From Halovivax cerinus (GTDB taxonomy: Archaea; Halobacteriota; Halobacteria; Halobacteriales; Natrialbaceae), in contig NZ_CP101824.1 of assembly GCF_024498195.1 (NCBI RefSeq), positions 496,001 to 560,000 of the forward strand: a stretch of DNA of 64,000 bases. The letters are read 5' to 3'. Positions 31,471 to 61,319 of this stretch are shown here, one piece after another; the stretch's first letter is position 1; each line of letters begins with the position of its first letter. The position numbers and the translations under genes were made by a program. The notes under the pieces are model-generated. The model saw only the letters and a list, made by a program, of their open reading frames with translations. It had not been told where the DNA came from and did no database searches.

Positions 31471-34325
31471 CGTCGCCGAACCCCCGACAGCGCGAGTTGA
31501 TCGAGAGCACGGACGGGTGCTACCTCGTCGACGCCGGACCCGGGACCGGAAAGACGTTCACCATCACCCGGCGGTACGCCGAGATCGTCGAACAGGACGA
31601 TGTCGAACCAGACGACATCCTGCTAAATACGTTTACGCGGAACGCCGCGACGGAGATGCGCGACCGGATCGTCGCCCACTCCGAGTACGGCGCACGCGAA
31701 CTCCGCGATGCCCCGATCGGAACCTTCCACTCGCTCTGTAACGACATCCTCCGCGAACACGGCTTCGACGCGCCCTCGCACCTCGGCCTCGACGAGGCGA
31801 TCACACGGTCGACCAGTGTGCTCGAAGACGAAACGATCGAGGGCAAATACTTCCGGGAGTTCGTCGGCAAGTTCACGGACGATCACCCCGAGCACCACGA
31901 TCTCCTTCGGGCGATCTCGGATCCTGACGACATCCTGGACGTGATCAAGAACCTCGCAGCGAACGGCGTCTTCCCGACGATGGAAGGCTGGTATCGTGAC
32001 GCCGAGGAGCAGCTCTACGGCGACGCCGACGCCTTCGAGGCCGTCTTCGAGGAACTGAACCGCCCCCGGAACGGCGGGAGCAAACAGTCCGAGCTACGAG
32101 AATCGCTCACCGACTACGACTCCGATGCGTGCTATCTGCCCGACGCTCCGTCCAGAGCGGAGATTCGCGGCGAATCGGGATCGAAGGCGATTCCAGGGCA
32201 CGTCCGGACCCGTGTCTTCGAGGAGGATCGCGAGGGCCTGCTCGCGTTCGTCCACGACGTCTACGTCGAGTACCTGGCGTTCGCCCTCTCGCGAAACTAC
32301 CTCAATTTCTCGTTCCTCCAGCTGTTCGCGTTCGTCCACCTGTGCGAGAACGAGGCGCTACGCGACCGACTCACGTTCGAGTACGTGATGATCGACGAGT
32401 TCCAGGACACGAGCGAGATCCAGTTCAAACTCGCACTCTTACTCGCCGGGACTGAGAACGTCTGCGTCGTCGGCGACTGGAAGCAGAGCATCTACTCGTT
32501 CCAGTACGCCGACGTCGAGAACATTACCCAGTTCCAAGACCGACTCCATCGGTTCGTCGAGGACCTGAATTCCGACAGGTCCCGGATCGATGCGTCGTTC
32601 GACGAGGTGAACGAGATCGAACTGGACCGAAACTATCGATCCACGCAGGCGATCGTCAATCGATCCGAGGACGCGCTGGTCGTCCCCGGGACCGGGAGTG
32701 AGGAGGTCGACGCCGAAGCCGTGCTCGAGGACGTCGTGTCGCTCGAGGCCGAGACGGACGCGGATCACTCACACATCGAAGCGATCCAGCACGAGAACGA
32801 GCACGAAGCGGTCCTCACGAAGATCGGCGAGATCGTTGGGAACGAGGAGTACGCGGTTCGGGACGATAGAGACGGTGGAGGGAGTGATGGGCTCCGGCCA
32901 CCCAGGTATGGCGATATCGCGATCTTGACCCGTACGCGAGACTTCGGTCGGGAGCTGTTAGCGACCGCCGAGGAACACGGATTTCCGATGGCCTACGAGG
33001 GCGGCGTCGAACTCTTCCGGACCGACCCGGCCAAACTCCTGCTGGCGTGGCTGCGGATCCTCGAGGGTGGGACCGACGAGGATCGCGGCTGGGCGGTCGT
33101 CCTCGAACGAGCCGGCTACACGCTCGACGAGATGAAGCACGTGCTTTCGACTGGGTCCTATCCGTCCGGGATGGTCGCGTTCCGCGACGAACTCGACGGC
33201 CTCGAGACGGTGAGCGCCGTCGCCCACCGAGTCTTCGATCGGTACGGGTACGACGGTCCGACGGCCGAGGTTCTCAGCACGACGATCCAGTCGGTGTACG
33301 ACGCGACGACGATGACCCGCGGCGACCTGATCCGCTTTATCGAGCGCGAGGTCGAATCCGGTGCAACCCACGAGGTGACCGCTGCCGCAGGGTCGAACGC
33401 GGTTCGGGTGCAGACGATCCACGCGGCGAAGGGACTCGAGTATCCGATCGTGATCTTGGCGAATATGAACGCGAACAAATTCCCGTCGACGGGCGGGAGT
33501 GACGGTCGGATCGTCTACGACGAGCGATTCGGCCTTCGACAGCGAACGTGCTACGGAGAGGCCCACGACCAGCCGCACGTCTACGACAACTGGTATTGGG
33601 ACGTCCTCAAGTGCTGTCGTCCGACGGAGTACGACGAGGAACGCCGGCTGCTGTACGTCGCGATGACGCGAGCTGAGGACCACCTGGTATTCACGGCGGG
33701 CGAGGAGCCGAATACCTTCCTCGAAGAGCTGCCGGTAGCGGTGGAGACGTACGAGCCTGCAGTGGAACGGCCAGCCGTTGGTGAGACCGTCCAGACCCGG
33801 TTCGACGTCGGGATCCCGGAACCGGCGGGGCCGCGAGGCTACTCGCCACACTCGCTGATGAACGACGAGGTCTTCGAGGCGGTCGACGAGGGTCGGGGTG
33901 CCGAGTACGGGTCACGAGTGCACAATTTCGCCGAACGGTACGCGCTGGGCGAGGACGTCGAACCGCGGAGCGACGAGGAAGACGAGCATCATGTGGCAGA
34001 GCTGCTCGACTCGTTCGAGGGCGAGTTACGGGTCGAGGAGGATGCGTACATGCCACTCGAGGTCGACGGCGAGCAGGTAACCATACGCGGGGTGGTTGAT
34101 CTCGTCCACGTGGCCGAGGACGCTGTTGAGATCGTCGACTACAAAACCGTTCTGGGACGGCACGCCGAGGACGAGTACCGGACGCAACTGAGCGTCTACT
34201 GGCACGTGTTGAACGAGGTGTATCCGGATCGGGCGGTGACGGCGAGTCTGTTCTACACGGCCGAAGGTGAGTTGGTGGAGATGGAGCCGCTATCGAAGGA
34301 CGTGATCGGCTCGTTGATGGAATAA
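31467..34325 (+). CDS. AddA/UvrD-like SF1A helicase with C-terminal PD-(D/E)XK nuclease
   Basis: This 952-residue protein has all SF1A motifs: Q-motif NPRQRELI, Walker A AGPGTGKT (23-30), Ia LNTFTRNAATEM, II IDEFQDTS (DEFQD at 310-314), III VVGDWKQSIYSFQ (335-346), IV LDRNYRST, V VQTIHAAKGLEYP and VI LLYVAMTRAEDHL. The C-terminal 80 residues carry a RecB-type nuclease (Asp 878 in GVVDL, Asp 891 and Lys 893 in VDYKT). Together with its overlapping partner it forms a helicase-nuclease that would unwind and cut DNA ends, as in AddAB. It could act in recombination or in degrading foreign DNA. Confidence 0.88.
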   Translation: MTSPNPRQRELIESTDGCYLVDAGPGTGKTFTITRRYAEIVEQDDVEPDDILLNTFTRNAATEMRDRIVAHSEYGARELRDAPIGTFHSLCNDILREHGFDAPSHLGLDEAITRSTSVLEDETIEGKYFREFVGKFTDDHPEHHDLLRAISDPDDILDVIKNLAANGVFPTMEGWYRDAEEQLYGDADAFEAVFEELNRPRNGGSKQSELRESLTDYDSDACYLPDAPSRAEIRGESGSKAIPGHVRTRVFEEDREGLLAFVHDVYVEYLAFALSRNYLNFSFLQLFAFVHLCENEALRDRLTFEYVMIDEFQDTSEIQFKLALLLAGTENVCVVGDWKQSIYSFQYADVENITQFQDRLHRFVEDLNSDRSRIDASFDEVNEIELDRNYRSTQAIVNRSEDALVVPGTGSEEVDAEAVLEDVVSLEAETDADHSHIEAIQHENEHEAVLTKIGEIVGNEEYAVRDDRDGGGSDGLRPPRYGDIAILTRTRDFGRELLATAEEHGFPMAYEGGVELFRTDPAKLLLAWLRILEGGTDEDRGWAVVLERAGYTLDEMKHVLSTGSYPSGMVAFRDELDGLETVSAVAHRVFDRYGYDGPTAEVLSTTIQSVYDATTMTRGDLIRFIEREVESGATHEVTAAAGSNAVRVQTIHAAKGLEYPIVILANMNANKFPSTGGSDGRIVYDERFGLRQRTCYGEAHDQPHVYDNWYWDVLKCCRPTEYDEERRLLYVAMTRAEDHLVFTAGEEPNTFLEELPVAVETYEPAVERPAVGETVQTRFDVGIPEPAGPRGYSPHSLMNDEVFEAVDEGRGAEYGSRVHNFAERYALGEDVEPRSDEEDEHHVAELLDSFEGELRVEEDAYMPLEVDGEQVTIRGVVDLVHVAEDAVEIVDYKTVLGRHAEDEYRTQLSVYWHVLNEVYPDRAVTASLFYTAEGELVEMEPLSKDVIGSLME

Positions 34326-34845: not shown

Positions 34846-37800
34846 ATGAATAGCCAATATCCAAGCCTGTTCGAATCATGCACTCCGCGAGACGATGTAC
34901 TGGATGGAACACTGCAGGAGGAGCAGTTCGCTGCGAGTCTCGCGACAGTTGCTCACTCATCCGACGATGCTGCGCCGGTGTATCGCGATGCAGCTGAGTT
35001 CTACGATATGACGTATCCCACTGACGGGCTTCGAACGCTCCTCAGTAATCTCACCGGCCGGTTTCTTTCGAGTGGTGGCTATGATAGCGGAGGCTATTCG
35101 AGCAGTATTCTGTGCCTCGACACTCGTTTTGGCGGTGGAAAGACCCACGACCTAATTGCGTCATATCATTTGGCTACGAATCCTACCGCTGTGGACGATC
35201 TCGGTCGCCATCTCCTCGATGCCGATGCAGATCTCGCAACGAACTACGTCGATGCCGTGGAGGAAGGGCTCGAAGTTGATTCCGCCGTATTCGTCGGTGG
35301 CCACGTCGACGCACGGAATGCCCGAAGCGACCGATCGGATCCAAACGCCCCGAACACCAGAACGATGTGGGGTGAGCTTGCCTATCAACTCTACGGGAGT
35401 GAGGGCTACGAACAAATCAAGGAGTATGACCAGGAACGGCAGGCTCCAGGCGGGAATACGCTCAAAGCCCTCTTCGAGTTTGGTGAAGGACCAGCGCTAA
35501 TCCTCGCGGACGAAATTGCGGCGTATCTAAAGGCCGCGTCCGGTGTCGAGGTGGGCAATACGACTCTCGCCAGCCAGACGCTCACGTTCATCCTATCGCT
35601 GCTGGAGACCGCATCGGAAGTCGAGAAGGTAACTGTCGTCTACAGTATCGCGGACACGGCATTCGAGGACGAAGCCGAGAACGTTCGTACTCTCATCGAC
35701 GAACTGAACCAGATCGGTCGTCGCCAGCACAAAACCATCACGCCGACGTCCGAAAACGAGGTCGGACAGGTACTCCAACACCGTCTCTTCGAGAATATTG
35801 AACGTGCACAGGCCGAGTCGATCGCGGAATCCTATTTCCAATATTATACTGAGGGAGATCGACAGTTCACGCAAGAAGCGACTGACGCGAGTTACGTCAA
35901 CCGACTCGAACGCGAGTATCCATTCCATCCAACGATCATCGATACACTCACCGAGAAGATTGACACCATTCCGAAGTTCCAGCGAACACGAGGCGCGCTC
36001 AAGCTCCTCGCTCGTGCCGTCTACTATCTCTGGAACAACCAGCCCGATCATTACGACCGACACTGGATTCGGCTCTACGACCTTTCCCCCGCAGATAACG
36101 CCCCTGATGGGAGTATTGACTCGACACTTCGTGAGACGCTATTCGAATTCGTCGATCTAAGTGCAGCACTCTCTGCAGATATCTACAGCGAAGACGATAC
36201 GGCGCACACACAACTCGAAGACAGGAAGTGGACCGAGAAAGGGATACCACGTCTGGGTAGTCACCTGACCACTACATTTCTCTGGCACAGCCTCGCCTAT
36301 GGGGAGCAAGCGACCGGGCTTACGCGTGCGGAGATGAATATCTCGCTCGGACATCCGGACATCAGATTCGACAACTACGACTCGGCGCTGGAGGCGCTCA
36401 CGGGGGGCGATATGAACGTCGCGTGCTACTACCTCTACGACGAGGAGCGCGTCCGCTTCAAGTCCGAACCGAATCTCCTCAAGATCATCAATCAGCGCGT
36501 GGATAACACACCCGACGCGCAGGCTCGTAATCGGTTCAAGTCGCGCCTTCAAAAATCCGAGGTGGGAACAGGCGGTTTCGAGACAGTAGTCTTCCCAGAG
36601 GCACCGGCCGATCTTCCGGACAAGGTGTCCAAACCGCAACTCGCCGTCATGCACATGGACTCGGCGCCAGTCTCCGACGGCGGAAACGAGATCCCGGACA
36701 AAATCCAGACACTGTATCAGAAGTCGGCCTCCAAGCACGGTGGAGAGACCCAAAGCCGTGTGTACAAGAACTACGTTCTCTTCCTCGCACCCAACGAGGA
36801 ACGCATCGATGGCGCCATCGACGCAGCACGAGAGTTGGAAGCCATCGAAGCACTACTTGACGACTCCCAACAGACTGCTGACCTCTCTAACGAGCAGCTC
36901 GAAGAACTTCGGGAGCGCCGCGACCGGACACACGGACTCCTTGGTGAACAGATTCGAGGCGTCTACCGACACCTGTACTATGTCGACCGCAACGGCCTGA
37001 CACACCTGGCAATCAACGCTACCGAGGCCAATGGTGGGACAACGCTGGTGAACGCCGTCGAAGAGACCCTTGAGGGCCGGTTGATTCGGGCCGACGCGAG
37101 CGCGAAGGGTGTCGCGTTTTTCAAGCAGAAACTCTGGCAGCAAACCCAGGATAGCATGACTACGGAACAGCTGGTCACGCAGTTCGCTAAGAAGCCAGGG
37201 CTTCCGTACCTGCTGAACACGAAGCCGGTCAGAAAGACGGTGGCGAAGATGGTGGACGACGCGGGGTACACCTACTGGGATAGTACGGCCAGTGAGAGCG
37301 GCCTTGCGTACTGGGATGGCGACGAAGACGACAGCCCAGAAAACTGGGGGAAGGCAGACCCACTCGCGGAGTCGGACGACGTCCGAACCAGCATCCGCGA
37401 TTCGGACGTGAAAATCGGTGACGGCTACGTTGTCTACACGGACATCGGCTCGCTCCTCGACGTCCATCACGAATCGATTCGAGCCCCGGCGGTCGAAGAA
37501 GCGCTGTGTGCGGAGGACAGTTGTAACGTTGAAGTCGATGCAGTTGGCGACTACTGTCCGGAGCACGAACCTGACAGTCCGACCTGTAGCCGATGTGGGA
37601 CGGCCGTCGAGGATGAAAGTCAGCTGAACGCACAGGGACTGTGTGATAATTGTAGCCGGCCCAGTGACTGGGAGCAATCGACCAGTCTGATGGCAGCCTC
37701 GCGTGCTTTCAACGAAGTCCGAACGCACGCACTGGGTAAGGCGACGTCCGGCGGTGATCCTGGCGTCGACCGCGTCACGGTCGAGACCGGCGGCGACGAA

Positions 37801-38151
37801 CAGCTTTCGAAAGGGTCGTTCATCGCTGGACGGCAGGCCTTCGGCGATCGAGCCGACTCCGTTTCGGTGCGGATGCAGTACGAGACGGAGTCGTCTGGCG
37901 GAGCCTCGTACCGCGCAACGTTTACTGGTGGCATCGACGAGTTCTCGAACGTGACGAACCAGCCGGATTCTTTCGGTGATGCGTCGCGAGTCGAGTTGAA
38001 GTTCCGCGTCGAGCTGGACGATCCGGAACCACTTACTGACGCTGAGGATGACGTCCTGGCAGAACTCAGAGAAGCCCTCGGAGACACCAGTATCGATGTG
38101 AAGGTTCAAGCACGAGGACCGGTCGAAGTAGCCCCAGAGGTTCACCAATGA
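34846..38151 (+). CDS. DUF499 (COG1483-type) AAA+ ATPase, predicted defence protein
   Basis: This 1,101-residue protein carries Walker A in LDTRFGGGKTHDL (94-101) and Walker B in ALILADEIAAYL (Asp-Glu 222-223). These are the hallmarks of DUF499 ATPases, which usually sit beside DUF1156 methyltransferases in anti-phage loci. A zinc-binding segment near the C-terminus (CAEDSCNVEVDAVGDYCPEH, then CSRCGTAVEDES and LCDNC) could bind nucleic acid or a partner. The last 150 residues are beta-rich. It overlaps the next gene by 4 bp (ATGA). GC is lower at the 5' end. Its exact action is unknown; a sensor or motor role is likely. Confidence 0.85.
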   Translation: MNSQYPSLFESCTPRDDVLDGTLQEEQFAASLATVAHSSDDAAPVYRDAAEFYDMTYPTDGLRTLLSNLTGRFLSSGGYDSGGYSSSILCLDTRFGGGKTHDLIASYHLATNPTAVDDLGRHLLDADADLATNYVDAVEEGLEVDSAVFVGGHVDARNARSDRSDPNAPNTRTMWGELAYQLYGSEGYEQIKEYDQERQAPGGNTLKALFEFGEGPALILADEIAAYLKAASGVEVGNTTLASQTLTFILSLLETASEVEKVTVVYSIADTAFEDEAENVRTLIDELNQIGRRQHKTITPTSENEVGQVLQHRLFENIERAQAESIAESYFQYYTEGDRQFTQEATDASYVNRLEREYPFHPTIIDTLTEKIDTIPKFQRTRGALKLLARAVYYLWNNQPDHYDRHWIRLYDLSPADNAPDGSIDSTLRETLFEFVDLSAALSADIYSEDDTAHTQLEDRKWTEKGIPRLGSHLTTTFLWHSLAYGEQATGLTRAEMNISLGHPDIRFDNYDSALEALTGGDMNVACYYLYDEERVRFKSEPNLLKIINQRVDNTPDAQARNRFKSRLQKSEVGTGGFETVVFPEAPADLPDKVSKPQLAVMHMDSAPVSDGGNEIPDKIQTLYQKSASKHGGETQSRVYKNYVLFLAPNEERIDGAIDAARELEAIEALLDDSQQTADLSNEQLEELRERRDRTHGLLGEQIRGVYRHLYYVDRNGLTHLAINATEANGGTTLVNAVEETLEGRLIRADASAKGVAFFKQKLWQQTQDSMTTEQLVTQFAKKPGLPYLLNTKPVRKTVAKMVDDAGYTYWDSTASESGLAYWDGDEDDSPENWGKADPLAESDDVRTSIRDSDVKIGDGYVVYTDIGSLLDVHHESIRAPAVEEALCAEDSCNVEVDAVGDYCPEHEPDSPTCSRCGTAVEDESQLNAQGLCDNCSRPSDWEQSTSLMAASRAFNEVRTHALGKATSGGDPGVDRVTVETGGDEQLSKGSFIAGRQAFGDRADSVSVRMQYETESSGGASYRATFTGGIDEFSNVTNQPDSFGDASRVELKFRVELDDPEPLTDAEDDVLAELREALGDTSIDVKVQARGPVEVAPEVHQ

Positions 38152-38789
38152 CGTCCCACCCCACTACGGAATCCGATCTGCAGGGAGCGAAGCCACTCCC
38201 CCAAAACAATCTCAGTACTGGACACTTCGGTAGTAGCGTGTATGGTGGCCGTCCAACGTTTGCGCTCACCAGGCGCGACGGCCCCGACGGTGCTCGCTTG
38301 ACACTATACGAACTCCTCCCGGAAGACCAAGCAACGGCACGTTGCGAGCGCCTGAAGCGCGGGAATCCGAACCGTGGACTCGTGATTGAGCCTTTCGACG
38401 AGGTGTTCGACGACTCGACCGATCCCGATGCAGACTGTTGGGAATGGGATACCTGGACAGCGGTGAAGGTATCCCGACTCTCTGAGAGTCGTCTACGGTC
38501 CATCCTCCCACTCGTTAAGGAAACCCTCGACGGTGCGGACATCGACGACACGGCTGTCACGAGCGGCGGTCACACCGATGTCTTCCTCCCGGAGACTGTG
38601 GGCGTCCGTCTCGCGCTGGGTTTCTTGGGTGTGAAGCCCATCCAGCGCGTCGATCGGATGCGGGCGTTCTGTCGTGGTATCGCGCAGATGAGCGACGAGG
38701 AGTGCTACTACTGGCACGCGAAGTGTCGATCGCCATCGAGCCCGAACGGCGAGAAGGCCTTACGAACGATGCTGACTTCGCATATCTAA
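38148..38789 (+). CDS. Conserved-looking protein between DUF499 and DUF1156 genes (possibly DUF7680)
   Basis: This 213-residue protein overlaps the DUF499 gene by 4 bp and precedes the methyltransferase by 3 bp, so it is translated as part of the same unit. It reads FALTRRDGPDGARLTLYELL and ends with MRAFCRGIAQMSDEECYYWHAKC. I tentatively link it to DUF7680, but the memory is weak. In bacterial DUF499/DUF1156 loci a DUF3780 protein takes a similar place, so this may be the functional equivalent. No catalytic motif was seen. Confidence 0.55.
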   Translation: MTSHPTTESDLQGAKPLPQNNLSTGHFGSSVYGGRPTFALTRRDGPDGARLTLYELLPEDQATARCERLKRGNPNRGLVIEPFDEVFDDSTDPDADCWEWDTWTAVKVSRLSESRLRSILPLVKETLDGADIDDTAVTSGGHTDVFLPETVGVRLALGFLGVKPIQRVDRMRAFCRGIAQMSDEECYYWHAKCRSPSSPNGEKALRTMLTSHI

Positions 38790-38792
38790 CTC

Positions 38793-41684
38793 ATGAGTGA
38801 ACAACCGGCGCAGGAAACGGACGAGCAGGAGTCGTTGAAACCACTAGCCATCGAGGGGAAGTTGCCGCTGAAAGCGGTCGGTATCGAGAACTTGAAGGAG
38901 GCAAATCCAAAGCATATGCCTCCTCATCGTTATCTTCATCCATGGTTTGCTCGGAGGCCGACTCCTGCCACTCGTTTGGCAATTCTAGCCTCGGTGTTTC
39001 CAAAGAACACAGACCCCGACGATTTGCTTCGATGGATGCAAATTGGACCGAAAGAAGGCGTTGAAGATGAATCCATCAGTGAGTACGTAGAACGCAAGAA
39101 GGCTAATGAACAGAACCGAGACGGGAACTTAGAAGGTCACTACGGCTATCCACGGCCGTTCACGTCCTCTCCCAACGATACAGAATTAGAAACCTTCCAT
39201 GAGAGTCTACGCAAGCACTGGGATGGTTCCCTTCCAGAGATTATTGATCCAACAGCAGGAGGGGGAGTCATTCCTTTCGAATCGCTCCGTTACGGGCTTC
39301 CGACAAAGGCAAATGAGCTTAATCCGGTTCCTTCACTAATACTCAAAGTCCTTCTACAATATGCTCCTAAGGAAGGTTCTCTGGAAGAAGAACTCATTAA
39401 GTGGAGTAAGACGATCGACGAATCTGCCGAAGAAAGGTTACGAGAATATTTTCCAAGTGGAGAAGATACAGCAACCGTCGATTCTTATGTGACAACCCAC
39501 ACCATTGGATGTCCGACGTGCGGATCGGATCTCCCTTTGGTTTCAAAGTGGTCTATCCGGACTCGAAAGAGTGCAGATACAGTTATTACTAAACCTGATC
39601 TGGACGAATCTGGTTCAATTTCGTATGACTGCCTTGTAGAACCGGATCAAGAGATTTTAAAAGAGTTCGATCATTCTGATGGACCCGTTTCGCGCGGAGG
39701 AGATGCTGAATGTCTGCAGTGCGGGGTTGTAACCGAATCAGAAGCAATCCAAGAGCGATATCAAGATGGTGAGTTTCGATTTGATGTTTACTGTGTTCGC
39801 GAAATCACCACAAATGGGGAGTATAAATTTCGTGCGCCCAACGATGCAGATCAAAAGGCACTAACGAAAGCCAAAGACCGAATTGAATCTGATTATCAAA
39901 TTTCGTCTTTTCTTTCGACCGAAGTTCCGGAAGGTGAAAAAACCCGAGAGCCACGAGAGTACGGCGTCACCGAATGGAAGAACATGTATACTCCTCGCCA
40001 AATAGTCTCTCATTATGAATACCTGCAGTCATTCCGCGAACACATCGGCCAAATTCAGGACAAGTATTCAACTGAAAAAGCCGAAGCGATTTTAGCTATT
40101 CTTTCTCTTGCGCCAGGAAAATTAATAGACTATAACTCTCGATTTTCACCATGGCATACCGGGAAGGGCTACCCATCTAATGCAATGGGCGGAAAGCATT
40201 TTTCATTAGCCAAATCATTCGCCGACATCAATATGTCTGTTGGGGGTATGGGAAGCTATCAATCTGCAATTGAGAAGATAATTGAATCTTATGAAATATT
40301 AGTCCGTTATTTGCCCGGAGATGTAGGGGCTGCAGATGTCGTTTCTGGAGACGCAGCAAAAATGCCGTTTGCAGATGGTAGTGTTGACGCTGCTATAATG
40401 GATCCTCCCTACTACAGTAGTATCATGTACGCGGAGCTGTCTGATATGTTTTATGTTATTCTTAAACCATACCTTAAGGATACATTGCCAAATCTGTTCT
40501 CTTCAGATCTTACCGATAAAATGGATGAAGCTGTGGCTAACCCAAGCAAATTCGCTACAGTCGCTAGTAACGAACATTCGAAGAAAGAGCTTGCAGACCA
40601 AAATTACGAAGATAAAATGGGCGATATATTCTCTGAAGTGTATCGGGTTTTAGATTCTGGTGGGGTGATGACGGTGATGTTCACTCATAAAGAGACTGAT
40701 GCCTGGGATACACTAACTATGTCTCTTATAAATTCTGGATTCACAATCACTTCCACTCATCCAATTACAAGTGAAATGCCAGCACGAATTGATACCCAAG
40801 GAACAGGATCGGCAGACTCCACCCTCCTCCTCGTTGGTCGTAAACCCCACGAAGAACGCGACCCCGAGGACACGACTCCAACGCTCTGGAGCGACGTCAA
40901 AACCGACACCCGGACTGCAGCGCAGGAGGCCGCCCGCGACCTCATCGACTCCGGGTTGAGCCTCACTAAAACCGACGTCATCATCAGCGCATTCGGCCCG
41001 ACACTACGTGTGTTCGCGGACGCCTACCCGGTCGTCGACGACGAAGACAATGAGGTCAAGCCTCGACGCGCGCTCGAAGAAGCCCGGGAGGCGGTCACGC
41101 GGATCCTCATCGACGAGTACCTCGAAGTCGAGGGCATCGACGATCTCGATGACATCACAGAGTGGTACGTGCTCTGTTGGCTCGTCCACGAGAAGCAGAC
41201 GTTCTCCTACGACGATGGTCACCAACTCGGATTAGGGATCGGCGTCGACATCGACGATATCAAGCGCAACACGAAGACGTGGCGAAAGAGCACCGGCGAC
41301 ATCAGCCTCCGCGGGCACGCCGATCGCGTGCAGAATAGCAACGAGAAACCTGAGAATCGGTCCAGTCGGACGCCGGTAAATCCCGACGACTTGTCGTTCG
41401 GACTCGCGCTGGACAAAGTCCATGCGGCGATGCACATTTACGACGTACAGGGCGAGAGCGCGTGCTGTGACTGGCTTCGCGAGCGGAACTTCGATTCCGA
41501 TTCGACGTTCAAATCCACACTGAAGGCACTCCTCCAGGTGCTCCCGCACGATCACGACGACTGGGAGCTGGCCCGTGATCTTGCAGTCGGACGAACGCGT
41601 GACGTCCTGGACCTGGAATTCAGTCCGAACGTCTTCGCGGATGACGGCGATAAAATGTCTCAATCGAAACTTAGCGACCACTAA
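38793..41684 (+). CDS. DUF1156 DNA methyltransferase (COG1743-type) with zinc ribbon
   Basis: This 963-residue protein begins with the DUF1156 block KLPLKAVGIENLKEANP, HRYLHPWFARRPTPATR. SAM-binding is in IIDPTAGGGVIPFE (DPTAGGG 152-158) and the catalytic motif is MDPPYYSSI (DPPY 537-540), typical of N6-adenine or N4-cytosine methylation. Zinc ribbons appear as CPTCGSDL and CLQCGVV. A long C-terminal region (about 670-963) has no named domain. The gene is compositionally mosaic: 38,890-40,800 is AT-rich (39,841-39,900 is 38% GC) while the ends are GC-rich (40,861-40,920 is 63% GC). It probably marks self-DNA for the defence system. Confidence 0.87.
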   Translation: MSEQPAQETDEQESLKPLAIEGKLPLKAVGIENLKEANPKHMPPHRYLHPWFARRPTPATRLAILASVFPKNTDPDDLLRWMQIGPKEGVEDESISEYVERKKANEQNRDGNLEGHYGYPRPFTSSPNDTELETFHESLRKHWDGSLPEIIDPTAGGGVIPFESLRYGLPTKANELNPVPSLILKVLLQYAPKEGSLEEELIKWSKTIDESAEERLREYFPSGEDTATVDSYVTTHTIGCPTCGSDLPLVSKWSIRTRKSADTVITKPDLDESGSISYDCLVEPDQEILKEFDHSDGPVSRGGDAECLQCGVVTESEAIQERYQDGEFRFDVYCVREITTNGEYKFRAPNDADQKALTKAKDRIESDYQISSFLSTEVPEGEKTREPREYGVTEWKNMYTPRQIVSHYEYLQSFREHIGQIQDKYSTEKAEAILAILSLAPGKLIDYNSRFSPWHTGKGYPSNAMGGKHFSLAKSFADINMSVGGMGSYQSAIEKIIESYEILVRYLPGDVGAADVVSGDAAKMPFADGSVDAAIMDPPYYSSIMYAELSDMFYVILKPYLKDTLPNLFSSDLTDKMDEAVANPSKFATVASNEHSKKELADQNYEDKMGDIFSEVYRVLDSGGVMTVMFTHKETDAWDTLTMSLINSGFTITSTHPITSEMPARIDTQGTGSADSTLLLVGRKPHEERDPEDTTPTLWSDVKTDTRTAAQEAARDLIDSGLSLTKTDVIISAFGPTLRVFADAYPVVDDEDNEVKPRRALEEAREAVTRILIDEYLEVEGIDDLDDITEWYVLCWLVHEKQTFSYDDGHQLGLGIGVDIDDIKRNTKTWRKSTGDISLRGHADRVQNSNEKPENRSSRTPVNPDDLSFGLALDKVHAAMHIYDVQGESACCDWLRERNFDSDSTFKSTLKALLQVLPHDHDDWELARDLAVGRTRDVLDLEFSPNVFADDGDKMSQSKLSDH

Positions 41685-41707
41685 GGTCGCGGAAAACTAT
41701 CTCCAAC

Positions 41708-43924
41708 ATGAATGTTAACGAACTCTTCGACGGCTGGCACTACAGTGGTGCGGACTTGCTCGACACTGACGTGCGTGGGACGGAGTATGCCCGTGTTGAC
41801 GTAGCGGAGGCGGCATCCCGCGCGAAGGACATACTCGGGATGAAGGCGAACGACAAAGACGCGTTCGTCGTCCCGTTATTCGCGACCGACGGACCACACC
41901 CTACGAACGAGTATGTCTATTACCGGCCAGAGAGGGAAGAGATCGGCTGGTACGACGCAGGATTCGGCGTTTCTGGCACGGAACGGTTCGCCTCGTGTGA
42001 TAGGTTAGAGACGAACGAGATCGGACATCGGATCCGGTTCTGGCTTCCGTCGAATCACGCCGACCTGGAGGTCGAATTTGACGAGTCGAAACTACCACCA
42101 GAACGGGTTGATCCAGTAGACCGTCTAAGCAGTACTGAGGAACAGAAGTTGTTCAGCCAATTGAAGAACTTCGTCCGGTCCGAGCGAGACGCGGAACGAG
42201 ATGCCAACTGGGAGAACTACAGAGACCTTGGCCTTCAGGAAGGGATACGTCGAAATCGGGTATCGGGACCGTTTGTCCACATTTCCAAGACCAGAGGGGC
42301 GGACGGAAAACAAGCTTACCGGTATCAGTTAGCTGTTGACGAAGACGAAGAAGTAGACCTACGAGGCGATGAAGGGCTCTTTGAAGGGAACCAGTGTATT
42401 CTGGATATCAAGAATGGTGAAGACAACTTCCCCATCGAAGTCGAACTTCTGTCGGTTGACGATGTGACGATCACCTTCCAACCGATGTGGGGGAACATCG
42501 AGAAGGATACAGCTGTGGATATGCTTCTCATCGGAGAGGATGCCGAAATTTGGCTCCACGAGTTATTGAACCCTGTACCGTTCGACCGACGTCTCAGGGC
42601 AATCGAGCAGGTCCAGCACAACGACGAGAAACGGGAACTTCTCACCGGGCAACGGGCAGTGAGTTTCTCAGTCAATAAGTACGACCTGCCAGAAGGAGTC
42701 ATCGACCTGAACGAGTACCAGCGGTTGGCACTTATCTGGGCCGAGTGTTCGGACGACATCGTTTGCATTCACGGCCCTCCTGGGACTGGTAAGACGCGCA
42801 CACTCACAGCGTTAGTGGAAGAAGCAGCATCACGTGGCCAATCAGTCCTCGTAACGGCACATTCGAACCAGGCAGTGGACAATCTATTAGTAGGGGATAG
42901 CACTCGGGGTTCCCCCGAAGAGGACACCCTGCATGCGATGGCACAGGATCCGGATCGAGAGCTCTCGATCGCGCGTGTCGGGTACAACACGCGAAACAAG
43001 GTCGTCCAAGAGACGTATGTGGATCAGCCGGTGGATAGCGCTGACGTCGTTGCATCGACTACGAGTGGCGCCGCACAGTTCGAACAGGACAAGTTTGATA
43101 TTGCGGTTATGGATGAGGCGACCCAGGCGAGCAGGCCAGCCACAGCTATTGCCCTGAACTGTGCAAGAAAACTAGTACTAGCCGGAGACCACAAGCAACT
43201 TTCCCCGTATTGCGCCAATGAGGCGACACAGGAGGAGGATCTGCACGTTTCGCTTTTCGAATATTTACTTGAACGATACGGGGATGACATTTCCATTCTT
43301 CTCCGAAAACAGTATCGAATGAACGGGGCCATCGCGGAGTTTTCTAATCGAATGTTCTACAACGGAAATCTCGAAACAGACGAGCGAAATAGGGATTGGA
43401 CCGTTGACGAGTTAAAACCGCTAATGGGAATCGATATCGACGGGAATGAGCAGAGACAAATTCACGGGAACTCGTACTACAATGTTCAGGAAGCCGAGGC
43501 CGTAGCAAAGCAGGTAGAACTTCTCGTTCGGAGTGGGCTTGATCCCGAAGACATCGGAGTCATTACTGCCTACAGTGGACAGATTGGGAAGGTTGGGCAA
43601 CGAATCAATCAACTCGATATCGATAATCCGGAGCGAGTGACCGTCGACACGGTGGACTCGTTCCAGGGAGGCGAACGTGAGGCGGTCATCGCTTCGTTCG
43701 TTCGCAGCAACGACGAAGGACATAGCGGTTTTCTGGAATTCCCGGAGGAAGGTGCACGCCGACTAAATGTTGCGGTTACGAGAGCCCGAAAACGCTTGGT
43801 CCTTGTAGGAAACTGGGACACGTTAGGAACGACGGCTCCCCACCGGTCTCAGGAAGAGAGTTGTGCCCACCTCTATGCTGAACTAGCAGATCAAATTCGA
43901 TCGAACAACTTGATGTTGTCATGA
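41708..43924 (+). CDS. Upf1/Dna2-like SF1B helicase
   Basis: This 738-residue protein has an N-terminal region of about 340 residues without a known domain, then an SF1B helicase core: IHGPPGTGKTRTLTALV (Walker A 356-363), Ia VTAHSNQAVDNLL, II VMDEATQA, III LAGDHKQLSP, IV RKQYRMNGAI, V VDTVDSFQGGERE and VI RLNVAVTRARKRLVLVG. These match the AAA_11/AAA_12 pattern of Upf1, Dna2 and Nam7. It lies 23 bp after the methyltransferase and is likely co-transcribed. Proteins of this type translocate on single-stranded DNA or RNA. The 3' half is lower in GC than the 5' half. Confidence 0.85.
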   Translation: MNVNELFDGWHYSGADLLDTDVRGTEYARVDVAEAASRAKDILGMKANDKDAFVVPLFATDGPHPTNEYVYYRPEREEIGWYDAGFGVSGTERFASCDRLETNEIGHRIRFWLPSNHADLEVEFDESKLPPERVDPVDRLSSTEEQKLFSQLKNFVRSERDAERDANWENYRDLGLQEGIRRNRVSGPFVHISKTRGADGKQAYRYQLAVDEDEEVDLRGDEGLFEGNQCILDIKNGEDNFPIEVELLSVDDVTITFQPMWGNIEKDTAVDMLLIGEDAEIWLHELLNPVPFDRRLRAIEQVQHNDEKRELLTGQRAVSFSVNKYDLPEGVIDLNEYQRLALIWAECSDDIVCIHGPPGTGKTRTLTALVEEAASRGQSVLVTAHSNQAVDNLLVGDSTRGSPEEDTLHAMAQDPDRELSIARVGYNTRNKVVQETYVDQPVDSADVVASTTSGAAQFEQDKFDIAVMDEATQASRPATAIALNCARKLVLAGDHKQLSPYCANEATQEEDLHVSLFEYLLERYGDDISILLRKQYRMNGAIAEFSNRMFYNGNLETDERNRDWTVDELKPLMGIDIDGNEQRQIHGNSYYNVQEAEAVAKQVELLVRSGLDPEDIGVITAYSGQIGKVGQRINQLDIDNPERVTVDTVDSFQGGEREAVIASFVRSNDEGHSGFLEFPEEGARRLNVAVTRARKRLVLVGNWDTLGTTAPHRSQEESCAHLYAELADQIRSNNLMLS

Positions 43925-44387
43925 ATCGAGGGCGCTTAACCCGATTATACACCACACGCACCCCTTCACTGCCCGATTTTTACATTTAATATAAGGACAG
44001 CTAACTACCGGGCTACTTTTCGATAGAACCACTTATACGAAATCTTAGAATCTCCCGCTCAGTCAAATCTACAGGAACCTGTTTCGGTCCTCGGTCATTT
44101 TTACCTTCGGTACTGGAGCGACTTAGACCCCTTGAACACAACCTATTCCAAACAGTTCTACACCATTCTTGCGAAATCAAACTGTGATATTTTCACATAG
44201 AAGAACGACTGAGACATAAGAGATCCTAATCAGTGAGGGCTGAGAAAAAAGGCCATAAATTCGTTATTGGTGCTTGTTTGGTGAGAGCAAAATCAATTAA
44301 GAGACGTTGTATACTCTAAGGCATTATAAATAATCTGCCCTGTCACCGGCCCGAATTGTTATTGGGGAAGGGATTTACCTCCAGTAC
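43925..44387. other. AT-rich spacer without recognisable gene
   Basis: 463 bp hold only short, non-protein-like frames. GC is far below the chromosomal genes. The right end includes the promoter for the next gene. I see no repeat, tRNA or transposase remnant. Confidence 0.6.
44324..44333 (+). promoter_or_regulatory. TATA box of the 114-residue gene
   Basis: ttataaataa lies about 55-64 bp before the ATG at 44388, so transcription would begin around 44350 and leave a short leader with a purine-rich gggaaggg. Confidence 0.4.
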
Positions 44388-44732
44388 ATGGGTAAGCGGC
44401 GGCGGAAAGACGGGGCACACGACATTGGCGACTCGATGCCAGGTACAGTTGGTGATAGCCAAGGGTCGATTCACGATCGCCGAGAAGGGCCAACATTTGA
44501 TCCTGAAGAGGATGTTATCGTACCTAAACCGAGTAAAAAACAGAAGAAAGACCAGAACCAAAAGAACGATCGTTCAGAACAGAGTGAGGATACCGAAGAG
44601 TCAGAGGGAATGACGACGCGGATGAAATATGCCAAAAAGTACGGTGATTCGTGGCCTGAAAGCCGGCAACGCCGGTTCCTCCGGGAGCACGATGTGTCCG
44701 CAAAGGAGATGGGATGGAAGATTACTGAGTAG
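44388..44732 (+). CDS. Charged low-complexity protein, 114 residues
   Basis: The protein starts MGKRRRKDGAHDIGDSMPG. A central run of Lys, Gln, Asp, Asn and Glu (KPSKKQKKDQNQKNDRSEQ) is probably disordered, and the C-terminus (MKYAKKYGDSWPESRQRRFLREHDVSAKEMGWK) is basic and helical. The net basic tendency is unusual in a haloarchaeon and would fit a nucleic-acid-binding partner. It sits between the Upf1-like and PLD-SNF2 genes. No family was recognised. Confidence 0.55.
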   Translation: MGKRRRKDGAHDIGDSMPGTVGDSQGSIHDRREGPTFDPEEDVIVPKPSKKQKKDQNQKNDRSEQSEDTEESEGMTTRMKYAKKYGDSWPESRQRRFLREHDVSAKEMGWKITE

Positions 44733-44927
44733 TTAGATTGTACGTGCAGCCACCGTTCAGTTGTTCTTAATTAAAATCAACGAGTTTGTTCTATCATTCC
44801 TACTACGGATGGGTTTTGACCACTCAGTTGGATATCTGACCCAATCCTAAGACCAACTTATAGAGTGGATACAACAGTCTATCGGCGCTCAGTTATAAGT
44901 GACTAAGGGAAAGAACCTAGGGAAAGA

Positions 44928-47900
44928 ATGTGTTCGCTTTTATCTACCGAATGGGACTCTATTTACGAAAGTCAACCACGCTCTGAGGGTGCTCATCTCG
45001 TCGACGAGTTCTACGTCCCAGCGTTACAACGATCTACTCGGTACGACCGCATCGCCGGCTACTTCTCCAGTAGTGCACTCGCAGTCGCCTCCCGGGGAAT
45101 TACTGCGCTTCTTGAGAATGACGGTGAGATGCGATTGGTCGTTGGGACTGAACTCTACACCACCGATCGCCCTGTCTTCGAGGCGTTGACCGACGAGCTG
45201 ACCGATTCGTTGGATGAACTCGATGACGAACAACTCGACAGTCAACTCAAACTACTCGCCCGACTCCTTCGCGAAGATCAACTTCACATCAAAGTCGCTG
45301 TTCCCCGGCAGGGATCGTGGCGTCTCTTTCATCCTAAGATGGGGATTTTCCACGACGATGATGAGAACGCGATCTCCTTCGAGGGGAGTGTCAACGAGAC
45401 AGTCGGTGGGTGGAAAAACAACTACGAGCGATTCAAAGTACATCGATCTTGGGTTGACGAACAGGCGACGTACGTCGACGGTGACGTCGCCACGTTCGAT
45501 CGGCTGTGGGCGGACGAACATCCCTACGTCGAGGTGTACGATTTGCCCGAGGCTATCAAAGAGGAACTCATCGACTGGAAAGACCCAGACACACAATCGG
45601 AACTGGACGAAGCGGTTCAGATCGCCAGCGGCAACGCCCCGCCGACCGACCGGGATAAGGCAAACATCATCGCAGATGGCTATCGCTCGCCCGGCGCCCT
45701 TGCTCTCGCTGAACAGAGCAGCACCATCGAGCCGTGGCCACATCAGCGCGTCGTCTCTGACACGCTCGTCAACACCTATCCGAACAGTTTCTTGCTCTGT
45801 GACGAGGTCGGTCTGGGGAAGACGATTGAGGCCGGCCTGACGCTCTCGCGCCTCGGTCTGACTGGCGAACTCGAGACTGGACTCATGCTCGTCCCCGCGA
45901 GCCTCACCGTCCAGTGGCAAGAGGAGATGCGGGAGAAGTTCAACCTGAATACGTATCGATACGAGCGGGGCAGTAACTACGAATATGCCTTCATCGACGC
46001 GTTCGGTCGTGAACACTCACCACCACCTGCGTCTGAACTTGAACTCGACGGAGACGAACGCGAGCAGGCGTGGGTCGAGAGTCCAATCTGGCGCTTCCTC
46101 CACGACCACCAGAACGATGACGTCACCAACAGCCCCGCTATCGTCATCATGTCCTGGCACACGGCACGCCTGAGTGACCGATGGGATCAGGTGGCTCCAC
46201 AGGACGGGGGTACCGTCCGAACCCGGGACGAGGTGCCTGCAAGTTGCCGAGGACGATCGACATCGAACCGGGAGGGTGTCTGGGATGCAGTTGTCGTCGA
46301 CGAGGCTCATAACGGCCGTAAGGGGAGCAGTTTCTATTCGATGCTGGAACGACTCCGCGATCACACACAGACCTACTACCTGCTCACTGCGACACCGATG
46401 CAGTTGCACGCTGGCGAACTCTACGATTTGATGTCCTTGCTTGACCTCCCCGGAGGATGGGATACACAGGACAAGTTTGTCGAGTTCTTCAAAACGCGCC
46501 AGGCGCTTACAACGGCACTCAGCGACGTGTTCGGAGAGAGTGAGTCAGGAATGACAGATGATTCGTGGTCTGCACAAGCGACGCTTACTGAGAGTCGGTA
46601 CCAAGATAGACTTACTGGCGATCGAAGTCTGTCAGACCGAATATTCGACTCCCTCGCTACCGAATTGGATGTCGATGATGACCAGCATGCCCGTTCTATC
46701 GCAAAGCAACGCGTTCTGCGCGCTTGTGACCTCGCCAGTGACTACGGAGACCACTACGACGGGTATGTCGACACGTTCGAGGCCAAGATGGATGAGTACG
46801 GCGTCGACCCATTCGCTGCGAAGGAGGATGAGAAGCTCAAATATCTCCTCTACCCCGAGTGGAAGGTTGATGAGGAGTGGTTGACGTTCTCTCGGAACGA
46901 ACGCCTCGCTGCACTGGACGAGCTGACCGAGGCTGGTTGGCACGTCGTCCAAGATATACTCGACGAGTCGACACCGGTCGACGCACTCATCCACCGAAAC
47001 ACTCGGGATACGCTCCGGAAGTACGAACGTGTTGGTCTCCTCGACGCGATGGTCCCTGATCGTAAACCGGAGCAGCGCAAAATCGAACTGACGGATGAGA
47101 CTCGGCAGGTATACGATCGCATCCGCGAATTCACAAAGAAGTTCTACAAGCTCGCGCAGCAGTCCGACGAGGCTGAAACCCAGGCGATCGGGTTCGTCAT
47201 GACCACTTATCGGCAGCGACTAACGAGCAGTGTCTATGCGATTTCTCAGAGCCTCCAAAACCGCCTCACGAAGCTCCGGGGACAACAGACCATATTGAAG
47301 GGTAAACAGCGAGCAACGGAACGAGAAGTCGGAGATCCCCAGCAGGTCGTTATGGAAACACTCTCTGAACACGACCTTGAGGATCTCGACGCGCTGGACG
47401 AACTAGAAGGTGACTTAGAGGATGCAGACCTTGCGGAAATAATACCCAATGTCACCGACGAGGGGCTCCATCTACTAGAGCGTGAGATCAATGAGTTGGA
47501 ATCATTCGTCGATGAACTCGCCGCGATTGAAGAAGACCCAAAGATCGGCCAACTCAAGAACGATCTTGAGGAGTTAACTCGCGGCGGCCACAACCGAGTG
47601 ATCGTCTTCACCCAGTATACGGATACGATGGACTTCATCCGCGAGAATCTTTTATCGATTCACCGGGAGACGGTTGCGACGTACTCTGGGCGCGGTGGTG
47701 AGATCTACGACGGTGACTCAGATAGTTGGACTTCGGTAGGTAAAGAGCATGTTAAACGAGAATTTGCGGATGAAGACGGGAAGGTAGAAATCCTCATCTG
47801 CACGGACTCTGCCAGTGAGGGACTGAATCTGCAAGAATGTGGTGCACTCATCAATTACGACCTCCCGTGGAACCCGATGCGTGTCGAACAGCGCATTGGG

Positions 47901-48842
47901 CGTATTGACCGTATTGGACAGAACTATCCTGCGGTTAAGATACTGAATTATAGCTACACAGATACCGTGGAGACTGATATTTACGACCGACTCGACGACC
48001 GCATTGGACTGTTCGAGAACGTTGTCGGCGAGATGCAACCCATTCTATCGAGCGTGAGTGACCAAATCCGTGCTGCGACCCTCGAGTCTGAGGCCGAGAC
48101 AAGTGCTGAAAAAGTGGAGGCCGCCGACCGGGCTTTCTCCGAAAAACTCGAAGAACAGGATCGGAAGGGCCAGGTCGATGTCGGTGAATCGCTCGACTCA
48201 GTTGATACGCTTCTTGAGGAGGACGTCGTCGACGAGGCGAAACTTGACGCCTGGAAATCGTACAACCACCCCGATCTCGACGACGTGGGTGATGACGATT
48301 ACGCGTATCGCGACCCGTTCTATATTGATGGAGTCGAGCAACTCCTCGTCGATAACGATACCCTCACGGAGGCTGGAGTTTCGTTCACACCCGTTTCCGA
48401 AATCGACGGTTCAGGAGTGAGTTTTCCGCCACGGTTCGAATTCGCTGAGTCGACCTATCGTCTTGAATGGGATGGACTCGAAGAACAATCAATAGATGAC
48501 GGAGATACACTCGCGGAAACAATTGCGCCTAAGAAGGGAACGACCGCTGCCACCTTCGAAAGCGAATGTGCCGAAGAGTTCCCGTCAGTACAGTTCCTTT
48601 CACCTGGCAACCCGCTCTTTGATAGACTGGTCCGATTGCTTCACTCCAGAACCGACGACCCACAGCGCTTACGCAAGTACGAGGCAGGCCGCGCTCAATT
48701 TGATGAGAAACCGGTTGTGCGTTGTTGGGGACGAAATGGTACTCTCGCACGCCTGTCCAACAGGGGATCGGTAATTGAATCAGAAGAACACGCAAATCCC
48801 CAGGAGTGGCGCGACACCTTTCTCAGAAATCGAAGTGGCTGA
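44928..48842 (+). CDS. SNF2-family helicase with N-terminal phospholipase D-like domain
   Basis: This 1,304-residue protein has a PLD-like domain in the first 200 residues (YDRIAGYFSSSALAVA, then LFHPKMGIFHDDD with His 135 and Lys 137, and FEGSVNET). An SF2/SNF2 motor follows: LLCDEVGLGKTIEAGL (Walker A 292-299), VVVDEAHNGRK (DEAH 458-461), LLTATPMQL, and the C-terminal motifs ILICTDSASEGLNLQ and NPMRVEQRIGRIDRIGQ. The layout recalls SNF2 helicases of DISARM-type loci. Only one HxK motif is clear, so PLD activity would need dimerisation. It lies 195 bp downstream of the charged gene with its own AT-rich upstream region. Confidence 0.88.
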   Translation: MCSLLSTEWDSIYESQPRSEGAHLVDEFYVPALQRSTRYDRIAGYFSSSALAVASRGITALLENDGEMRLVVGTELYTTDRPVFEALTDELTDSLDELDDEQLDSQLKLLARLLREDQLHIKVAVPRQGSWRLFHPKMGIFHDDDENAISFEGSVNETVGGWKNNYERFKVHRSWVDEQATYVDGDVATFDRLWADEHPYVEVYDLPEAIKEELIDWKDPDTQSELDEAVQIASGNAPPTDRDKANIIADGYRSPGALALAEQSSTIEPWPHQRVVSDTLVNTYPNSFLLCDEVGLGKTIEAGLTLSRLGLTGELETGLMLVPASLTVQWQEEMREKFNLNTYRYERGSNYEYAFIDAFGREHSPPPASELELDGDEREQAWVESPIWRFLHDHQNDDVTNSPAIVIMSWHTARLSDRWDQVAPQDGGTVRTRDEVPASCRGRSTSNREGVWDAVVVDEAHNGRKGSSFYSMLERLRDHTQTYYLLTATPMQLHAGELYDLMSLLDLPGGWDTQDKFVEFFKTRQALTTALSDVFGESESGMTDDSWSAQATLTESRYQDRLTGDRSLSDRIFDSLATELDVDDDQHARSIAKQRVLRACDLASDYGDHYDGYVDTFEAKMDEYGVDPFAAKEDEKLKYLLYPEWKVDEEWLTFSRNERLAALDELTEAGWHVVQDILDESTPVDALIHRNTRDTLRKYERVGLLDAMVPDRKPEQRKIELTDETRQVYDRIREFTKKFYKLAQQSDEAETQAIGFVMTTYRQRLTSSVYAISQSLQNRLTKLRGQQTILKGKQRATEREVGDPQQVVMETLSEHDLEDLDALDELEGDLEDADLAEIIPNVTDEGLHLLEREINELESFVDELAAIEEDPKIGQLKNDLEELTRGGHNRVIVFTQYTDTMDFIRENLLSIHRETVATYSGRGGEIYDGDSDSWTSVGKEHVKREFADEDGKVEILICTDSASEGLNLQECGALINYDLPWNPMRVEQRIGRIDRIGQNYPAVKILNYSYTDTVETDIYDRLDDRIGLFENVVGEMQPILSSVSDQIRAATLESEAETSAEKVEAADRAFSEKLEEQDRKGQVDVGESLDSVDTLLEEDVVDEAKLDAWKSYNHPDLDDVGDDDYAYRDPFYIDGVEQLLVDNDTLTEAGVSFTPVSEIDGSGVSFPPRFEFAESTYRLEWDGLEEQSIDDGDTLAETIAPKKGTTAATFESECAEEFPSVQFLSPGNPLFDRLVRLLHSRTDDPQRLRKYEAGRAQFDEKPVVRCWGRNGTLARLSNRGSVIESEEHANPQEWRDTFLRNRSG

Positions 48843-52228: not shown

Positions 52229-52250
52229 ACGATCTACTGGCGCGCGTCGG

Positions 52251-52258
52251 TTTAAATA
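52251..52258 (-). promoter_or_regulatory. TATA box of the response-regulator gene
   Basis: On the minus strand, gtatttaaa is centred about 27 bp before the ATG at 52228, the expected distance for leaderless haloarchaeal transcription. Confidence 0.6.
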
Positions 52259-52423
52259 CTCTACTGCCGATAGTCGACAGAATTCGATATACCTGGGTTA
52301 GTATAGAAATCCAACAGCTGTTTGATAAAATTTCTGTTATAACGAAGTTCCTGCCGTGTTGCTGTGAGAATTGTACTTTCTACTGGCGAGGCTTTCTGCT
52401 GACGGGTCAGAGGGTCAGCGAGG

Positions 52424-53458: not shown

Positions 53459-53670
53459 CACCTACCAAATAGAAGAAGGAGAGTTGGATATAAACGCTTG
53501 CTGTACAATTCTCCAAGGAGGACTACATACCCCTACGTTTATATGTAATAACCTGACTTATTGGACATTTCCTATAATTACCACCAAACTCGAGACACTG
53601 TAATTGAACGTTCGGGACCCTACACATCTCATGCACGGTCCATCTCGGGATGGTCCCAGTCTGATTCTAT

Positions 53671-56718: not shown

Positions 56719-56724
56719 GGACGA

Positions 56725-57867: not shown

Positions 57868-57883
57868 CCTTCGTCGGTCGTGC

Positions 57884-61315: not shown

Positions 61316-61319
61316 GGGA

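Follow-up and report, generated by a model that had tools for sequence, protein, structure and literature searches.

The 64,000 nucleotide stretch of Halovivax cerinus DNA analysed here (the window) contains an operon with a core of four genes, encoding a DUF499 AAA+ ATPase, a small DUF7680 protein, a DUF1156 methyltransferase (MTase) and an HKD (PLD) nuclease-SNF2 helicase. We judge it likely that these genes form a restriction-modification (RM)-like defence cassette that belongs to a DUF7680-bearing lineage of the DUF499-centred BREX-related (BR) class and works in the way set out below, and we infer its methylation, restriction and docking roles and an antiviral effect. The broad kind (DUF499/Hma/BREX-related) is already known. 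According to PMC12839542, the DUF499-centred BR class is RM-like and its helicase is experimentally anti-phage; Hma (PADLOC; PMC8565338) overlaps this class. As DUF499-centred RM-like defence has been published, the operon is ordinary in kind. New relative to published accounts, as far as the literature examined shows, are the DUF7680 lineage, the probable tie of DUF7680 to DUF3780, and the evidence for MTase exchange.

Gene content of the operon

A preliminary description of this DNA had assigned six genes to the operon. An ORF check of the window confirmed the coordinates of all six, each on the forward strand, along with the 4 bp overlap of the DUF499 and DUF7680 ORFs and the gaps of 3 bp between DUF7680 and the MTase and 23 bp between the MTase and the SF1 helicase. 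The features are as follows.

34846..38151, + strand: DUF499 AAA+ ATPase (HmaC-like), 1101 aa; core; PF04465 1.7e-33, HmaC 2.5e-91
38148..38789, + strand: DUF7680 small subunit (the '213-aa protein'), 213 aa; core; PF24728 2.3e-38
38793..41684, + strand: DUF1156 N6-adenine-type methyltransferase (HmaB-like, predicted), 963 aa; core; HmaB 1.1e-57
41685..44927, + strand: variable cargo slot from the MTase to the PLD-SNF2 gene, 3243 bp here
41708..43924, + strand: SF1 Upf1/IGHMBP2-like helicase, 738 aa; optional cargo; AAA_12 3.5e-49
44388..44732, + strand: 114-aa charged protein; probable SF1 helicase partner; motif GDSxPGxVGDSxGxxHDR
44928..48842, + strand: HKD (PLD) nuclease-SNF2 helicase, 1304 aa; core, effector candidate; PLD_Helicase 2.1e-68, PbeA 1.3e-66, NF042964 2.2e-102

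The domain identities proposed earlier were borne out by profile matches far beyond chance. The HmaC profile scored 305 bits on the ATPase, and the BrxC profile only 14.5 bits. The MTase matched PF06634 (DUF1156) at 1.1e-6, above the family cut-off, and the SF1 helicase matched the Pfam profiles AAA_11 (2e-34) and AAA_12 (3e-49) and scored under the family cut-off of TIGR00376. Profile searches with the 114-aa ORF returned no family match.

The DUF499 ATPase has intact Walker A and Walker B motifs (GGGKTH and DE, respectively), which are invariant across 61 aligned relatives. The MTase retains DPTAGGG and DPPY, both conserved in relatives, with DPPY (residue 537) invariant. Likewise, HxK...GSxNE (HKD), DEVGLGKT, DEAH and RIGRIDRIGQ are intact in the PLD-SNF2 protein and conserved in its relatives; the HKD motif is found in 75 of 78 aligned helicases and is missing from the remaining three, the Type-1 helicases. 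The catalytic parts are intact, and activity is predicted from these motifs. Searches of PDB sequences found no matches for the DUF499 ATPase or the MTase, and those with the PLD-SNF2 protein returned RapA and other helicase cores only. Together, the profiles and intact motifs support the outline first suggested for the locus, namely a putative self-marking methyltransferase with an ATPase and a candidate PLD-SNF2 effector.

A four-gene core in archaea and bacteria

When 391 Halobacteria genomes were searched for DUF7680, 64 gave matches, and up to 20 kb around 66 matches was retrieved for gene-order comparison. The order DUF499-DUF7680-DUF1156-PLD-SNF2 was found in all 67 haloarchaeal loci examined, incomplete only where the contig ends, with the ATPase gene usually running 1 or 4 bp into the DUF7680 gene. 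The core is four genes, not six. DUF7680 is invariant in the examined loci; this '213-aa protein' had been passed over in the preliminary description and is the most telling part of the operon. Many haloarchaea also encode another, weaker DUF499-like family of approximately 1085 aa (E ~1e-6), which was taken to be a different family.

The core order, with occasional insertions, is also present on plasmids of Sinorhizobium, Rhodococcus, Picosynechococcus and Nostoc, and in Leptolyngbya the core genes are more dispersed. In four cases, a small bacterial gene annotated as 'hypothetical' proved to be DUF7680 (1e-29 to 1e-47). A scan of approximately 85,000 species genomes, using a query built on four sequences and hence biased to cyanobacterial and similar sequences, found 79 DUF7680 loci. 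Many were in Cyanobacteriota, and the others included Actinomycetota, Desulforamulus, one Ktedonobacteraceae MAG, deltaproteobacterial and planctomycete MAGs, and Halobacteria. Where the contig was long enough, the neighbours were mostly the same core genes, and additional genes were often inserted in the cyanobacterial loci.

Near-identical cassettes were found in different haloarchaeal families with unrelated flanks, indicating that the cassettes move as units. In the window, the GC content of the operon is 0.46–0.59, compared with ~0.65 over most of the remaining sequence, and this low-GC island has genes for TraG/VirD4-like ATPases downstream. Given this setting, the movement of cassettes and the many relatives carried by plasmids of haloarchaea and bacteria, it is possible, if unlikely, that the cassette serves mainly in competition between plasmids or other mobile elements, guarding its own replicon less against viruses than against competing plasmids or conjugative elements. 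Such a role is compatible with antiviral defence, and relatives in the class are reported to be anti-phage (PMC12839542).

Variable cargo between the MTase and helicase genes

The slot between the MTase and PLD-SNF2 genes is 179 bp or less in 47 of the 64 loci where it could be measured. In the remaining 17, including the window, it is 0.7–6 kb and holds unrelated genes. Besides the SF1 helicase, the contents include an MCM_N/MCM_OB-HSDR_N fusion, a pair of adjacent genes of which one is TauD-like, a DUF3800 protein, a protein of ~316 aa with a HEPN-like RN..H motif (seen by eye; no Pfam match) and a PHP-ATPase-like gene on the opposite strand (also by eye).

The SF1 helicase is present in only six of the 67 loci: the window, L031, L034, L037, L046 and G018, the operon of the last being divided between L048 and L282. 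Relatives with 55–67% identity are also encoded away from such operons (L281, L283, L284 and L285; 60–67% for the first three). In L281 and L285, a small protein with the motif G[ED]SxPGxVGDSxG adjoins the SF1 helicase, as it does in the slots. The N-terminal motif of the 114-aa protein gave 24–41 bits to the small proteins next to the SF1 helicase in L031, L034, L037, L046, L281, L282 and L285, and on this basis the 114-aa ORF was taken to be a gene. The SF1 helicase is optional cargo in a variable slot, and the 114-aa protein is its probable partner. As the motif-bearing small protein accompanies the helicase within and outside the operons, the pair is best read, from the sequences compared, as an embedded accessory.

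The co-occurrence and conserved order of six families, envisaged previously as a system with 'two extra helicases', holds for the four core genes, in the 67 haloarchaeal loci and in bacteria, and fails for the SF1 helicase. The PLD-SNF2 helicase is in every complete locus. It is very unlikely that all six genes work as a single integrated system with both helicases taking part. The genes do lie on the same strand, the MTase-helicase gap is 23–30 bp in the five complete loci that contain the SF1 helicase, and this helicase travels with its small partner. However, 61 of 67 loci lack it, the slot is mostly empty or filled with unrelated cargo, the helicase is also found elsewhere, and in relatives the small partner gene is on the opposite strand. 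The six-gene system falls, and the earlier reading of the core stands. Defence genes embedded in Hma systems have already been described (PMC12988326); there, other defence-like genes sit inside an Hma-type operon, as the SF1 helicase does here. BR systems with auxiliary effectors are likewise described in PMC12839542.

Relationship to known systems

The features of the broad BR class, a DUF499 ATPase, a DUF1156 N6-MTase and a SNF2-type helicase, are all present in this locus. The DUF499-DUF1156 pair had been called a known defence signature, and such a class is described in PMC12839542 and PMC8565338. Type-2 BR systems (PMC12839542) consist of DUF499, DUF3780, a DUF1156 MTase and an HKD-SNF2 helicase, and the same four positions are occupied here. 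Shared features are the HKD nuclease at the helicase N-terminus, whose HxK...GSxNE motif is conserved in helicases of both types, a small alpha+beta protein between the ATPase and MTase, and auxiliary genes in the locus. However, DUF7680 is found here instead of a standalone Pfam DUF3780, and scores are far under the cut-offs of the NCBIfam equivalogs of the DUF3780 type (209 versus 1200, 139 versus 1000 and 344 versus 1100 bits).

For the MTase and ATPase, the best scores come from Hma profiles (HmaB and HmaC), as in Hma/Type-1 BR systems, and the helicase has an HKD nuclease, as in Type-2. Unlike Hma/Type-1, the operon has DUF7680 as an additional core gene and an N-terminal HKD on the helicase, which sampled Type-1 helicases lack. 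The C-terminal PD-(D/E)XK nuclease that marks the Type-1/Hma helicase had no Pfam match in the helicase here, and no HEPN fusion on the ATPase was found by Pfam. Type-3 BR is marked by PglZ and a fast-evolving iSTAND, and the PglZ profile had no match among the operon genes.

Among BREX systems, Type-3 in particular is close. PMC12839542 describes the ATPase, MTase and SNF2 helicase of the class as homologues of BrxC, BrxXI and BrxHII, and profile scores here were weak for BrxC and strong for BrxH. Unlike BREX, the operon genes include no matches to PglZ, BrxA, BrxB/F or BrxL. The absence of PglZ, BrxL, DrmA and DrmB reported earlier holds among the operon genes.

The PLD-SNF2 protein had been called DISARM-like. 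It is the normal core helicase of the published class (PMC12839542, PMC8565338) and not an import from DISARM. It matches the DrmD profile (7.8e-62), but PLD_Helicase, PbeA and NF042964 all outscore DrmD, and the operon contains no separate DrmA, DrmB (DUF1998) or DrmC gene. With DrmD not the top match and DrmA and DrmB absent from the operon, a link to DISARM was rejected.

In small, unrooted trees of the MTases, ATPases and helicases, the DUF3780-type proteins form fully supported clades that exclude the DUF7680-type proteins, including those of the window. In each tree a single branch sets the DUF7680 group apart, with good support for the MTase (99/98) and weak support for the ATPase (53/58) and helicase (50). 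In these trees, the DUF7680 lineage is distinct from the DUF3780-bearing Type-2 systems and from Type-1. Gao et al. (2020) reportedly tested a 'restriction-like' system of the DUF3780 type in E. coli.

DUF7680 and DUF3780

DUF3780 is located between the ATPase and MTase genes in Type-2 BR loci, the position that DUF7680 occupies here. No definitive homologues of DUF3780 are reported in PMC12839542, and the term DUF7680 is absent from its main text. Pfam DUF3780 had no match in the 391 Halobacteria genomes, in a search validated on a known record.

An early HMM comparison of DUF7680 and DUF3780 on few sequences gave P 0.026. A deeper, trimmed HMM-HMM comparison gave E 4e-5 with a probability of 70% over 144 columns, end to end. 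Among 242 controls and one reversed comparison, the best of 100 column shuffles reached 0.041 and the best of 142 windows from other real alignments 0.052. Only the trimmed figure is used, because the untrimmed alignment, which gave E 4e-6, contained a spurious upstream translation. AlphaFold2 models of DUF7680 and DUF3780 (pLDDT 85 and 82) have the same predicted order of elements, namely strands 1 and 2, strand 3, a long helix, strand 4 and four helices, with an insert following strand 2 in the haloarchaeal DUF7680. A Foldseek search of both models against PDB found no match with E <0.04, and neither fold has a convincing solved relative; LAGLIDADG nucleases were dismissed as noise (TM ~0.2).

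Operon position, the HMM-HMM comparison and predicted topology point to probable remote homology between DUF7680 and DUF3780. That the two are unrelated and only occupy the same position seems rather improbable. In absolute terms the HMM-HMM probability reaches only 70%, the sequences are <20% identical, and the models were compared by element order only. Against this, the end-to-end E value of 4e-5 is set beside a best control of 0.041, and both the predicted element order and the operon position agree.

Exchange of the N-terminal MTase module

The cassettes L066 and L067 share 98% identity in the ATPase, 100% in DUF7680 and 98% in the helicase, and their MTases are only 63% identical. In a set of 80 pairs with ≥90% identity in each of the other three subunits, 41 had an MTase identity of <75%; the 80 pairs are drawn from a few cassette families and are not independent events. 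The same count for each other subunit was 0 of 19–20 pairs. Between near pairs, the median identity per 100 aa is 0.61–0.72 in MTase residues 1–600 and 0.84–0.96 in residues 600–963. The MTase thus consists of an exchangeable module (residues ~1–600), to which the exchange is limited in most pairs, and a constant module (~600–963). Bacterial pairs follow the same trend more mildly (median 0.80 for the MTase versus 0.91–0.92 for the others).

Ordinary fast divergence under selection, with no module exchange and no message on specificity, is already disfavoured, and we regard it as highly improbable. Identity does drop gradually over 100-aa blocks, and the whole MTase gene differs in a few pairs, including L047/L055. 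However, nucleotide identity between L066 and L067 is 97% in the DUF7680 gene, drops to 53–66% inside the MTase gene and recovers to 96% across the helicase gene. Moreover, otherwise divergent cassettes can have an MTase in common: between L066 and L095 the MTases are 91% identical, compared with 78% for DUF7680 and 82% for the helicase (elsewhere 78–90%).

In BREX, PglX has been demonstrated to be the only specificity factor (PMC11341690). As the ATPase, DUF7680 and helicase are unchanged when the MTase changes, the target of the restricting complex would most simply come from the MTase. Module exchange suggests, by analogy with PglX, that the MTase alone may set target specificity for both protection and attack. 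Alternatively, the exchange could alter kinetics or evade an inhibitor, with the motif unchanged.

Proposed mechanism and implications

In the mechanism that we propose, the exchangeable N-terminal ~600 residues of the MTase would recognise a DNA motif, and host sites would be N6-methylated. The MTase would dock by its constant C-terminal ~360 residues, a role suggested by conservation of this module only, on the DUF499 ATPase and DUF7680, and would bring the complex to unmethylated sites on incoming DNA. The ATPase would drive assembly or scanning, and the HKD-SNF2 protein would translocate and cut. DUF7680, as the putative counterpart of DUF3780, would act between the ATPase and MTase as an adaptor or a reader of modification state. 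The SF1 helicase and 114-aa protein would be an embedded, separately mobile accessory, dispensable to the core.

More broadly, it is quite possible, and we put it forward tentatively, that DUF7680 systems are a separate, further BR type spanning several phyla, that the N-terminal ~600 residues of the two-module MTase serve as a plug-in specificity cartridge, which recombination exchanges into cassettes that are otherwise fixed, and that DUF7680 and DUF3780 belong to a single superfamily of obligatory coupling subunits linking methylation state to HKD-SNF2 cutting.

The DUF7680 lineage further subdivides the DUF499-centred systems, and DUF3780 gains a probable relative in a lineage found across several phyla. 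A role can now be offered for genes labelled 'hypothetical' in many haloarchaeal and cyanobacterial genomes. The natural swap pairs, cassettes that are 98–100% identical but for the MTase, make it directly testable whether, in DUF499 systems as with PglX in BREX, the MTase alone determines the specificity of both methylation and restriction.

Related genes in other genomes

The slot between the methyltransferase and PLD-SNF2 genes of DUF7680-type loci holds other cargo in other genomes. In one locus (L035) it carries a 431 aa protein in which MCM N-terminal and OB domains are fused to an HSDR_N-type nuclease domain, an unusual fusion. A protein of ~316 aa recurs in the slots of five others (L038, L052, L053, L054 and L058) and returned zero matches in a Pfam search; on sequence, RNxxSH close to its C-terminus is a possible HEPN motif.

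No DUF499-system genes were found within the 14 kb fetched for L285, where a TRAM-like small protein accompanies the SF1 helicase and a separate copy similar to the 114 aa protein is also present. Another DUF499-like family, with proteins about 1085 aa long, is common among the Halobacteria genomes searched; it matches the Pfam DUF499 profile PF04465 weakly (E about 1e-6) and is possibly a BrxC-type ATPase. A Halosegnis marinus plasmid (L153) contains three DUF1156 methyltransferase genes inside 20 kb, with HNH endonuclease genes nearby, and the record has eight matching places.

Regions flanking the defence operon

The operon lies immediately downstream of the first of these features (window positions):

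28774–34325, plus strand: AddAB/RecB-like pair of genes overlapping by 4 bp
51071–53461, minus strand: PAS response-regulator and histidine-kinase genes
53671–61519, minus strand: two large VirD4/TraG-like ATPase genes

The first member of the pair (898 aa) has a PDDEXK_1 domain, and the second (952 aa) combines a UvrD helicase with PDDEXK_1. The VirD4/TraG-like ATPases are 1015 and 1211 aa, and the former also has an 80-bit match to PADLOC mad8. Together with the response-regulator and histidine-kinase genes, these ATPases suggest that an integrated or conjugative element adjoins the defence operon.
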